Below are positions 33,889-36,794 of a DNA stretch of 64,000 nt, one piece after another. The notes beneath the pieces were generated by a model, which was given only the letters and a program-made list of their open reading frames with translations, was not told where the DNA came from and searched no databases. The stretch comes from Halorubrum hochsteinianum. Its GTDB lineage: Archaea; Halobacteriota; Halobacteria; Halobacteriales; Haloferacaceae. The DNA lies in the NCBI RefSeq assembly GCF_023702125.1, contig NZ_CP098415.1, positions 2,604,001 through 2,668,000 of the forward strand, written 5' to 3'. Position 1 is the first letter of the stretch. Each line of letters begins with the position of its first letter. Position numbers and translations under genes: made by a program.

Positions 33889-34551
33889 GTGAGCAGCCCC
33901 CGCCCCGATCGCACCGGCGCGGTCGCGCCAGCCGTCGCGGTCCTCCTGATCGCGGTCCTGTTCGGCGGGCTCGTCGGGACGTGGCCCCCGTTCGTCGCGG
34001 TCGAGAGCGGCAGCATGGCCCCGGGCGTCGAGCGCGGCGACCTCGTCGTCGTCACCGCGGCCGACCGCCCGCCGTGGGGCGACCTCGCGACGACGGCCGA
34101 CCCCGACGCGCCGACGCGGCTCGGCGGGGCCGGCGACGTGGTCGTGTACGCGGTACCGGGAGCGGGGGACAGACCGGTGTTCCACCGCTTGGCGTTCCCC
34201 GTCGAGGCGGGGGAGGACTGGACGGAGCGGGCCGACCCGGCGCTCCTCTCCGGCGACTGCGCCGAGCTTTCGACGTGTCCCGCACCGTACGACGGGTACG
34301 TCACTCACGGCGACGCGAACGAGCTGTACGACCAGAGCGCGGGCATCGCCCCGGTCGTCCCCGAGGAGTGGATCGCCGGGAAGGCGCTGTTCGCGGTGCC
34401 GAACCTCGGCTGGATCCGGGTCGGGATCGACGCGGCCGCGGCGCGGTACGGCGGGGTCGCGACCGCGGTCGTCCTCGTCGGGTCCGCGGGGCTGGCCGGG
34501 GGAGTCTGCGCGCTGTTTGTGGGTCGGCTCCGGCGCGGAGGACGACGGTGA
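33889..34551 (+). CDS. signal peptidase I (archaeal S26B type)
   Basis: A 220-residue membrane protease that removes Sec signal peptides. A GTG start precedes one membrane helix (about 12-33), then the nucleophile Ser in FVAVESGSMAPGVERGDLVV, a catalytic His in VFHRLAFPVE, and GYVTHGDANELYDQSAG with the Asp pair used by archaeal Sec11-like enzymes. A second helix lies at the C-terminus (about 190-212). It is longer than minimal Sec11, with an insert around residues 65-85. It diverges from gcvT. Confidence 0.88.
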   Translation: MSSPRPDRTGAVAPAVAVLLIAVLFGGLVGTWPPFVAVESGSMAPGVERGDLVVVTAADRPPWGDLATTADPDAPTRLGGAGDVVVYAVPGAGDRPVFHRLAFPVEAGEDWTERADPALLSGDCAELSTCPAPYDGYVTHGDANELYDQSAGIAPVVPEEWIAGKALFAVPNLGWIRVGIDAAAARYGGVATAVVLVGSAGLAGGVCALFVGRLRRGGRR

Positions 34552-34864
34552 GGCGGTCCGGCGGCGGCGATGCGCTATTTAAGTACATCTGAACGGCAGC
34601 AGCGATTATTTATAAACCCCGGTGCGGTCGGCGCGCGCCTCCGAGCGGCCGCCCACGGCGGCCGCGAGGAGCGCGTGCGAGGGAGTCGCTGGTCCCGGAG
34701 CGAAGCGGAGGGACCAGCGACGAGGCTGGGGAGGCGTGAGGTGCTGTGCGGAGCGGTGCGGGGTGGGACTCGAAGCGCCCGCCTCCCGGCTGGGGCTTCG
34801 GTGGCGTTCACCGCGGAGCAGCCGTTCGATTATAAACAGCCGCGGACGCCGTCGACATCGATCG
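34552..34864. other. intergenic region carrying dispersed repeat copy A
   Basis: No gene seen. TTTATAAAC at 34609-34617 opens the repeat zone, and TTATAAAC at 34830-34837 closes it. The repeat itself is described separately. Confidence 0.6.
34630..34813 (+). repeat. dispersed structured repeat, copy A
   Basis: About 184 bp starting GGCGCGCGCCTCCGAG and ending GGCTGGGGCTTCGGTGGCG. The core is a perfect 11 bp hairpin: 34685-34695 (GTCGCTGGTCC) pairs with 34711-34721 over a 15 nt loop containing GGAGCGAAGCGGAG. The stretch after it, GAGGCTGGGGAGGCGTGAGG, is identical in copy B, which lies inverted 1.6 kb downstream. Confidence 0.8.
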
Positions 34865-35431
34865 CTACCGGTGCCAGGTCGGTTCGGTCCCCGTCTCGTC
34901 GCCGCCCCCCGTCGCGTCGGTGGCGTCGCCGCCCTCCGTCGAGTCGACGTCGTCGCCGTCGAGCGTCACCGAGCCGTTGGCGGCGTTGCGGAGCGCGTCC
35001 GAGCGCCCGAACTCGCCGGGCGCGATAGCGAGCGTCCGGATCCCGTAGCCGTTCGCGGTCTCGACGACCGGCTTGAAGTCGGTGTCCCGGGAGGCGATCG
35101 CGAGGGTGTCCATCCGCCCCTCGGCCGCGAACCGCGCGGCGTCGACCGCGAGTTTCACGTCCACGTCGCCGCTGGTCATCACGACCTCGAAGCCGCGGGC
35201 CTCCGCGGCCTGGATCAGTCCCGGCGTCGCGTGCTCGTCGAGGTAGAGCCGCGTCGTCACCAGCGGCCCCTCCGCCTCGCCCGCCCGGCGCACGTCGTCG
35301 AGATCGACGTCGAACTCCTCGCGCAGCACGTTCGGACCGTCGACGAACAGCGCCACCCCGCCGGCGTTCGGGTCCGTCTCCCCGGTGGCGTCCGAGGTGA
35401 GACCCTCGACCGCCTCGTCGCCTTGCTCCAT
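34865..35431 (-). CDS. NYN/PIN-like domain nuclease (LabA/DUF88 type)
   Basis: A 188-residue protein with an NYN domain: VALFVDGPNVLREEFDVDLD with the first metal Asp, EVVMTSGDVDVKLAVDAARF, and DTLAIASRDTDFKPVVETAN with the acidic cluster. This is the conserved Asp layout of PIN-like RNases, probably acting on RNA. N- and C-terminal tails are acidic and disordered. It lies between the inverted repeat copies, pointing toward copy A, and diverges from the next small membrane gene. Confidence 0.82.
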   Translation of the reverse strand: MEQGDEAVEGLTSDATGETDPNAGGVALFVDGPNVLREEFDVDLDDVRRAGEAEGPLVTTRLYLDEHATPGLIQAAEARGFEVVMTSGDVDVKLAVDAARFAAEGRMDTLAIASRDTDFKPVVETANGYGIRTLAIAPGEFGRSDALRNAANGSVTLDGDDVDSTEGGDATDATGGGDETGTEPTWHR

Positions 35432-35544
35432 GGCCGCGATCCGAGGCGACCGGAGATAGGCGTGGTGATCCGCGAGCGCCGGGGACGAAGCGTTGTTCCC
35501 GGTTCCACCACAAAGGATTTGACCAGAAAATCAGACGTTCACCC

Positions 35545-35877
35545 GTGACGGACTCCTCCGGTCGGCTCCGACAGGTTCGGGACCTGCTCGTCGCCCAGCC
35601 GACGGCCCCCGTCGAGCGGGCCTTCCTCCTCGGCCTCGGCCTCGCGCTCTGTGCGGTGACCCCGCTCGCGTCCGGGTCGCCACCGCCGGTCGGGACGTTC
35701 GGTTCTATCCCCACGCTGGTCGGTGTGACGCTCGTGCTGCTCGGCGTCTCCGAGTTCGTCCCGGCCGAGCGAACGGGGCTCATCCTCGCGCTCCGGTCGG
35801 TCTTCTTCGGACTCCTCGCGGCCTCGATCGCGTTTCTGGTAGCGCTCGTGCTCTTCGCGGCGAACAACGCGCCGTGA
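35545..35877 (+). CDS. small membrane protein, about three helices
   Basis: A 110-residue protein from GTG 35545 with hydrophobic helices at about 25-45, 52-70 and 80-106 (SVFFGLLAASIAFLVALVLF). The N-terminal 24 residues are polar (SSGRLRQVRDLLVAQ). No family recognised. TATA-like AGGATTTGACC lies about 25 bp upstream. It may be a haloarchaea-specific membrane protein. Confidence 0.65.
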   Translation: MTDSSGRLRQVRDLLVAQPTAPVERAFLLGLGLALCAVTPLASGSPPPVGTFGSIPTLVGVTLVLLGVSEFVPAERTGLILALRSVFFGLLAASIAFLVALVLFAANNAP

Positions 35878-35935
35878 TCTCGTCGGTCCGCTCGTCCGTC
35901 CGGAGGCCCGACCACGACGACTGATCGTTTCGACA

Positions 35936-36014
35936 CTTGGACACCTTATATCCGTATTACCACCTCACCCACGACCGTAGTGAATATACGGAGAATTGAA
36001 GTAGGTTGTCCAAG
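35936..36014. promoter_or_regulatory. inverted repeat around the promoter of the 83-residue gene
   Basis: CTTGGACA (35936-35943) and TGTCCAAG (36007-36014) are perfect complements 63 bp apart, with TATA-like CTTATATCC just inside the first arm. The second arm ends 14 bp before the ATG at 36029. This could be a regulator site or a leader hairpin. Confidence 0.4.
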
Positions 36015-36028
36015 AATAATGGAATAAG

Positions 36029-36280
36029 ATGTCACAATCAAATGCGTACACCGTTATCTCCGAGCAGAACGATCACGAATGTACCACGGTACGTGCCCAT
36101 CCGCGCAACGAGACGTACCACGTCGTCGAGTACGCCGACGAGGACGCCCGCGAGCGCGTCGCCGACCTCCCGGTCGGCTCGGTGGTCAAGATGGAGCTGT
36201 CGCGGGCCGGCCGCCGGAGCAACGTCTGGTGCGCGGAATCCGTCGAGACCGCGGTCACCGACGGCGGCTCACCGCAATAA
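36029..36280 (+). CDS. conserved small haloarchaeal protein, 83 aa
   Basis: An 83-residue soluble protein: TVISEQNDHECTTVRAHPRN, YHVVEYADEDARERVADLPV and VVKMELSRAGRRSNVWCAES form an apparent small beta-barrel fold with two Cys. Haloarchaea have families of such single-domain proteins (I recall the DUF7999 label, not certain). No partner gene; copy B of the repeat begins about 110 bp downstream. The function is unknown. Confidence 0.75.
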   Translation: MSQSNAYTVISEQNDHECTTVRAHPRNETYHVVEYADEDARERVADLPVGSVVKMELSRAGRRSNVWCAESVETAVTDGGSPQ

Positions 36281-36794
36281 GAATCGGGGGGTGCGTGGAA
36301 TTGAGATTCGGTCGCTGATCGTGACTTGGTGAAGGCTACACGCGCGATTCAAGCCTCAATCGCTCGGTCGTGCGTGGCCGAGAGTCCCGTGGCGGTGAAC
36401 ACCGCCGAAGCCCCAGCCGCTCGGTGCGACGTCGTTGCCGTTGACCAGACGGCCACCGAAGCCCCAGCCGCGAGGCGGCCAGACGCTCGTTGCGCTCCTC
36501 GGTCGTTCACTTCGTTCACTCCCTGCGGTGCTTACTTCGGCTCTGGCCGCCTCGCGACTGCCCCTTCGAGTCCTGCCCCGCACCGCCCAGCGACCGCACC
36601 TCACGCCTCCCCAGCCTCGTCGGTGGTCCTCCGCTTCGCTCCGGACCACCGACTCCCTCGCGCGGCGCTCCTCGGCCGCGATGCGGCCTCGGAGGCGCGC
36701 GCCGTCGTGTAAATGGGAAAGTAGCGTCGGAATCGTCGATACCAAACCGCAGTAAAATCGAACGGCTCCGACGACTTCGCGGCTTTACGGCCGG
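36281..36794. other. intergenic region carrying dispersed repeat copy B
   Basis: 514 bp without a gene. Most is repeat copy B (36391-36703). The stretch 36497-36522 (CGGTCGTTCACTTCGTTCAC) is a low-complexity sequence frequent in haloarchaeal intergenic DNA. The remaining 90 bp leading to the ilvD stop shows nothing. Confidence 0.6.
36391..36703 (-). repeat. dispersed structured repeat, copy B
   Basis: About 313 bp, inverted relative to copy A. It shares the start, the GAGGCTGGGGAGGCGTGAGG block and the GGCTGGGGCTTCGG end, the last present twice (near 36405-36418 and 36460-36473), and has an extra internal stretch. Its hairpin arms are 36619-36629 and 36643-36653, a perfect 11 bp stem over 13 nt. 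One stem pair differs from copy A on both sides (C-G there, G-C here). Confidence 0.8.

Follow-up and report, generated by a model that had tools for sequence, protein, structure and literature searches.

The window analysed here, a stretch of 64 kb, covers positions 2604001–2668000 of the main contig of a Halorubrum genome of 3.06 Mb in two contigs, and all positions below are those of the window. Two inverted copies of a repeat, A and B, lie within it. Copy A lies after a gene whose end is at 34551 and faces the gene 35431–34865, and copy B follows the gene 38585–36795, which from its own sequence we take to be ilvD, and faces the gene 36029–36280. Each copy starts some 80–90 nt past a stop codon on the same strand. 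The inverted match proposed in an earlier note on this DNA was present (34711–34747 against 36593–36629, at 95%), the arms of the second hairpin, H2, were as quoted there, and the loop core GGAGCGAAGCGGA was indeed kept in both copies. The stem of 11 bp that the copies were said to share has this length in B (GTCGGTGGTCC) but is 12 bp long in A (GTCGCTGGTCCC). The fold of hairpins H1 and H2 was recovered in both copies as it had been drawn, with a folding z-score of −5.4 for H1 plus H2 of copy A. A third hairpin, H3, had not been listed; in copy B it forms a complete rod of 116 nt (z-score −6.2), and in copy A it is reduced to a remnant of 34 nt. The coordinates are collected in Table 1.

Table 1. 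Features of copies A and B in the window.
Feature	Position	Strand	Basis
A, upstream AT-rich boxes: TATTTAAGTA (34576–34585) and TTTATAAA (34609–34616)	34576–34616	+	Sequence and positions of the boxes in the family
A, hairpin H1; internal loop of tandem G-A, CGAG/CGAG	34632–34679	+	Fold; covarying variants elsewhere in the family
A, hairpin H2, 12 bp, apical GGAGCGAAGCGGA; the stem of the earlier note	34685–34721	+	Fold; stem conservation in the family
A, invariant core GAGGCTGGGGAGGCGTGAGG	34722–34741	+	Motif counts in genome and window
A, G/T-rich linker with G-run pair at its end	34742–34767	+	Sequence; family profile
A, remnant of rod H3, interior deleted	34768–34801	+	Model R1, 20.6 bits, E 0.011
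B, hairpin H1	36660–36702	−	Fold
B, hairpin H2, 11 bp, allele GTCGGTGGTCC..GGACCACCGAC	36619–36653	−	Fold; identical allele in 7 sampled copies
B, invariant core motif	36599–36618	−	Motif count in window
B, G/T-rich linker	36572–36598	−	Sequence; family profile
B, complete 116-nt rod H3	36456–36571	−	Model R1, 126.9 bits, E 1.9e-28; covariation
B, extra copy of the H3 3' arm (GCGGCTGGGGCTTCGGCGG)	36402–36420	−	Direct repeat D16

Copies A and B are not a special pair. The window contains two copies of the invariant 20-nt core where 0.01 would be expected, and these are two of 127 copies in the genome (up to 3 mismatches), where the backwards control gave 1. A covariance model of H3, R1, whose E-values are rough, gave 119 matches in the genome, or about 103 once opposite-strand shadows had been removed. 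A full copy is a non-coding unit of about 300 bases which reads, 5' to 3' on the motif strand, as an AT-rich box, a box resembling TTTATAAA, H1, H2, the core, a G/T-rich linker with GGGYGGG at its end, and the rod H3. H1 has a tandem G-A internal loop. H2 is variable in length and sequence, and accessory hairpins are inserted in some copies. H3 measures 114–119 nt in most copies; above its closing stem of 5 bp sits an internal loop, GGG/GGG, that is almost without variation. Of 160 copies, 143 have both the linker G-run pair (G3N1-2G3) and the two G-runs of this loop. In 79 of 156 copies the 3' arm of H3 is repeated at least once within 220 nt downstream, the first repeat lying 35–60 nt past H3, compared with 2 in the control interval. 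The types of H1 and H2 are not linked within the genome above the level of shuffles (p 0.24). The accessory short hairpins (GCCGGCGCGTAGCGCCGGC, GAGGGACCTTCGGTCCCTC and GAGAATCTTCGATTCTC) are inserted as modules in both orientations, between H1 and H2 or after H2, and the loci carrying them include L051, L058, L104, L164, L192 and L207.

The sampled copies were read from the search loci and are biased to those with an exact core, and the genes next to them were called with a codon-usage script. All 187 copies with called neighbours lie outside called genes; convergent genes flank 82 of them and divergent genes 30. The frequency of convergent junctions, and the start of A and B shortly after a stop codon on their own strand, would suit a host element at transcript ends whose fold in the 3' untranslated RNA stops or protects transcripts between convergent genes. 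We regard this as very improbable given that for 75 of the 187 copies the preceding gene is on the opposite strand, the orientation to genes being loose, that the element is missing at the same junctions in closely related species and that avoidance of promoters also yields a convergent bias. Along the genome, 52 rods are on the plus strand and 51 on the minus strand, and both their runs and their spacing are as random, which rules out a replication-linked orientation or a regular spacing. About 1 kb separates the closest rods, and all the listed rods are on the main contig. The second contig, of about 101 kb, has 0 rods against about 3 expected; copies are very few on the plasmids of PLSDB as well.

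The covariation test on aligned copies that the earlier note had put forward gave a massively positive result in Halorubrum and in other genera, and confirmed the hairpins as conserved structure. In an alignment of 66 Halorubrum-type rods, 93.5% of the cells held standard pairs compared with 79.0% after shuffling (0 of 500 shuffles), double changes were present in 29 of 39 pairs and the score was 0.396 against 0.153. When the partners were slid, pairing was 27–42%. Seven genomes of other genera supplied 41 distinct rods, for which double changes were found in 34 of the 39 pairs and the score was 0.559 against 0.149. This second alignment, having been fitted to the model, is tilted in its favour, and its related rows do not count as independent, but the gap is very wide. 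The H2 stem is kept in 182 of 202 copies, with 1299 of 1456 outer pairs being Watson-Crick.

The two strands are not equivalent. G-U pairs exceeded A-C mismatches by 24:12 in H2 and by 75:36 and 40:20 in two sets of H3, an excess of only about twofold among copies that are not independent. The unpaired columns of the rod are 91% purine (49% G and 42% A), and the complement of the rod of copy B folds with a z-score of −3.9, less extreme than that of the motif strand given above. These observations favour one strand as the functional fold, a polarity common to RNA and single-stranded DNA. The hairpins might instead be palindromes at the level of DNA only, which gene conversion and template switching from arm to arm keep perfect while neither a folded RNA nor a folded single strand is under selection. 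Such a process would sit well with the exchange of whole alleles, with accessory hairpins in both orientations and with the interiors that are sometimes inverted, but the three main hairpins are rarely inverted and the length of the rod is near-constant within Halorubrum. As the internal loops are moreover purine-rich on one strand only, with the same G-A pattern in distant families, and the excess of G-U over A-C recurs in each of the three data sets, we hold palindromes of this kind to be distinctly improbable. Interiors reverse-complemented between intact outer arms were seen for H3 in L028 and L033 and for H2 in L070 and L090, indicating that hairpins occasionally invert in place.

A TATA-like box stands about 20 nt before H1, with a peak at 19–21 nt, in 62 of 134 copies, compared with 1 of 134 in a control interval, and a second AT-rich box is found across the family about 31 nt further upstream, some 52 nt before H1. 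The presence of the TATA-like box is independent of the orientation of the neighbouring genes, and a promoter of those genes was rejected on this ground. The earlier note had remarked on the TATA-like flank of copy A and suggested that A might be transcribed. The box has proved to be a positioned feature of the family, but transcription is not supported: at the usual archaeal distance from a box 20 nt before H1, it would begin some 10 nt into H1. This position also weighs against multicopy non-coding RNA genes, in which each copy would have a TATA box driving its transcription and the RNA product would act in trans, for instance by binding a protein through the rod tip. The strand polarity of the fold, the conservation of the rod tip across families and the positioned box, present irrespective of neighbour orientation, are all in keeping with RNA genes, but about half of the copies are without the box and AT-boxes of a similar kind are found in other species where site B is unoccupied, and we consider such genes unlikely. 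The empty site B has AT-boxes of its own in L232 and L238, so part of the upstream pattern may be a target or a remnant.

The history of the two sites was read from related genomes. Of the 30 loci examined for site A, 13 carry the element, our own genome included, and all 13 are close to this species. In several outgroups the convergent genes at this site nearly abut, with gaps of 2–30 nt (L257, L260, L262–L264 and L267). At site B the element is present in ten loci and absent at the clearly readable outgroup sites L227, L228, L230, L232, L237 and L238. For both sites, the simplest reading of these sequences would be gain within one Halorubrum clade followed by retention. Comparison by eye of occupied with empty sites identified neither terminal inverted repeats nor a target site duplication, the marks of a MITE (a non-autonomous DNA transposon), and no enzyme was linked, so the case for mobility is the phylogenetic gain. 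In L211 and L241 (G324), copy A is missing as a core-bearing copy and a core-like motif lies on the + strand elsewhere between the same genes, possibly an additional site or a chance match. The idea that the genes bracketed by A and B could be flipped by recombination found no support, as the gene upstream of site A, the element and the next gene keep their order and orientation in the relatives examined.

A change from C-G to G-C on both arms of H2, between A and B, had been read as a compensatory mutation under selection. The alleles concerned are whole-hairpin variants common to other copies and other species. Orthologues of A and B in at least ten species carry different H2 alleles; those of A include GTCAGTCGCC.., GTCGCGAGCG.., GCGGTGAGCGCTC.. 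and GCCGCGAGCGACC.., which are also present at other sites and in other species, and the exact H2 allele of B was found in seven sampled copies. Judged from these alleles, the double change between A and B is the exchange of one hairpin allele for another and provides no evidence of compensatory mutation at these loci. A diagnostic pair in H3, 5' CTC(G/A)AAG with 3' CTT(C/T)GG, was scored across genomes. The ratio of the G form to the A form is 68:4 in our own genome and 76:3, 91:4 and 52:2 in close relatives, and it is 22:147, 14:131, 7:96, 14:105 and 9:117 in other genomes that share sites A and B. Wherever the pair could be scored at sites A and B, it was that of the genome majority on both arms. 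The pair thus follows the genome and not the site, indicating that copies at fixed sites are homogenised within genomes (concerted evolution). This is a natural system in which concerted evolution makes, or at least spreads, covariation, which bears on how covariation tests are read.

The explanation that we favour, and think probable, is that A and B belong to a dispersed non-coding extragenic element of haloarchaea which is rarely gained, is overwritten by other copies, requires the fold of one strand and resembles the REP/BIME repeats. One strand would fold into H1, H2, the G-rich linker and the rod H3. New sites would be gained rarely, as is seen for A and B, which are present in one Halorubrum clade and absent outside it. 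Resident copies would be retained and repeatedly overwritten by others of their genome. Ectopic gene conversion would be the simplest means of doing so; new insertions that repeatedly replaced a copy at one site would leave a similar picture. Whole hairpins would be exchanged with both arms together and the copies of one genome would in this way grow alike. The polarity, and the conservation across families, suggest that a folded single strand is required, whether by natural selection or by the act of copying. The element would then act like a bacterial REP/BIME family, mostly at gene ends, while being larger and without a REP transposase.

Motif copies number 15–195 per genome in all the sampled Halorubrum and are present patchily in several other genera, the exact 20-mer being found on named contigs of Halorubrum, Halorussus, Haloparvum and Halobellus. 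When the covariance model was used instead of the motif, at least one rod was found in 72 of 117 genomes and in 33 of 48 genera of the order. Rods of other families read GGGTGGG-ACTGAAAGGGGC-rod-GGGGCTTTC and their tip is conserved across families. In G118, G024 and G090 the rods are mostly preceded by the same H1, H2 and core; no core was found upstream of the rods in G047 and G130. Carriage by viruses was rejected as viral contigs and phages gave no matches. Sixteen viral contigs contain a 15-mer of an other-family rod, taken as chance, and none of them has a rod. A plasmid-borne element was also rejected, since haloarchaeal plasmids hold only a few copies. A search of Rfam gave no family at or above the gathering cut-off in the window, and in the copy-bearing loci the one match, a weak one at E 0.81 in two of them, was to a microRNA family of plant type, so a known RNA family is ruled out as the identity of the element. 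No linked transposase or other recurrent gene was found among 830 neighbouring proteins. The Y1 transposase (PF01797, RAYT) had no match in the Halorubrum genome, although control genomes did match. The REP/RAYT route is therefore unavailable in this genome unless a gene outside that family supplies it. No published description of the element was found in the literature searched, of which coverage was partial. Rfam thus lacks an entry for a structured element that reaches tens to hundreds of copies in a genome and apparently extends through many haloarchaeal families.

Several known systems share part of this description. HEARO/OMEGA-type RNAs and the non-autonomous elements of IS200/IS605 are structured, of high copy number and fold in a strand-specific manner, as does the element described here, but no recurrent linked gene, of the IscB/TnpB type or any other, lies near the haloarchaeal copies and there is no Y1 transposase. 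The GC clusters of yeast mitochondrial DNA are likewise GC-rich, palindromic, dispersed and intergenic and spread by conversion-like events; the haloarchaeal element differs from them in its multi-hairpin architecture, its strong strand polarity and its conservation across archaeal families.

Among archaea, the recurrent potential G-quadruplex repeats of Methanomicrobiaceae are interspersed and intergenic, with four G-runs and an adjacent hairpin, and about half of them lie between tail-to-tail genes with an orientation not tied to the genes (Chashchina et al. 2021, PMC8044849). The haloarchaeal element is alike in being intergenic and interspersed and in its four G-runs, hairpin and tail-to-tail placement. 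Those repeats are short, with loops of up to 5 nt, whereas here the last loop would be a duplex rod of about 90 nt, there are two further hairpins and the host is of another archaeal class. The 2021 survey (PMC8044849) used loops of up to 5 nt and would thus have missed the haloarchaeal element. Its copies do not show four G3+ runs with loops of 1–5 nt, as one loop is the whole rod. The cytoplasm of haloarchaea contains molar potassium. It is conceivable, as a hypothesis, that the four G-runs around the rod form a quadruplex-duplex clamp, which would be likelier in molar potassium and with which the closing stem competes. A wider proposal is a haloarchaeal superfamily of rods clamped by four G-runs (GGG-Y-GGG-ACTNAAA-GGGG-rod-GGGG), possibly a K+-stabilised quadruplex-duplex hybrid, that a hypothetical enzyme copies through a folded single-strand or RNA intermediate; we put it forward tentatively and think it rather doubtful. 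Whether such a cytoplasm favours quadruplex-clamped structures is made testable by the element.

The closest likeness is to the REP, BIME and REPIN repeats of bacteria, which are also of high copy number, extragenic and palindromic with imperfect hairpins, and persist within genomes (PMC3116915, PMC2817692 and PMC3733652). Their unit is 20–40 bp with the tag GTAG/CGTC (same references). The haloarchaeal element is by comparison about 300 nt long with three hairpins, its rod alone being 116 nt and preceded by GGGYGGGACT; its tag is GGG-Y-GGG-ACT rather than GTAG/CGTC, the Halorubrum genome has no gene for a Y1 transposase, and whole hairpins evolve in concert across fixed sites. By analogy, then, the element would appear to work most like the bacterial REP/BIME repeats, yet it lies outside REP by the features that define them, and it makes testable a REP-like system in archaea without a REP transposase. 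Divergent back-to-back pairs, which may correspond to the closely spaced inverted pairs of REP, are not the arrangement in the Halorubrum genome but are present in some other haloarchaeal genomes. Such rod pairs were seen in G047, G048 and G095, separated by CCCACCC-N~25-GGGTGGG or by about 200 nt, and in the pairs seen the left rod was on the minus strand and the right rod on the plus strand.
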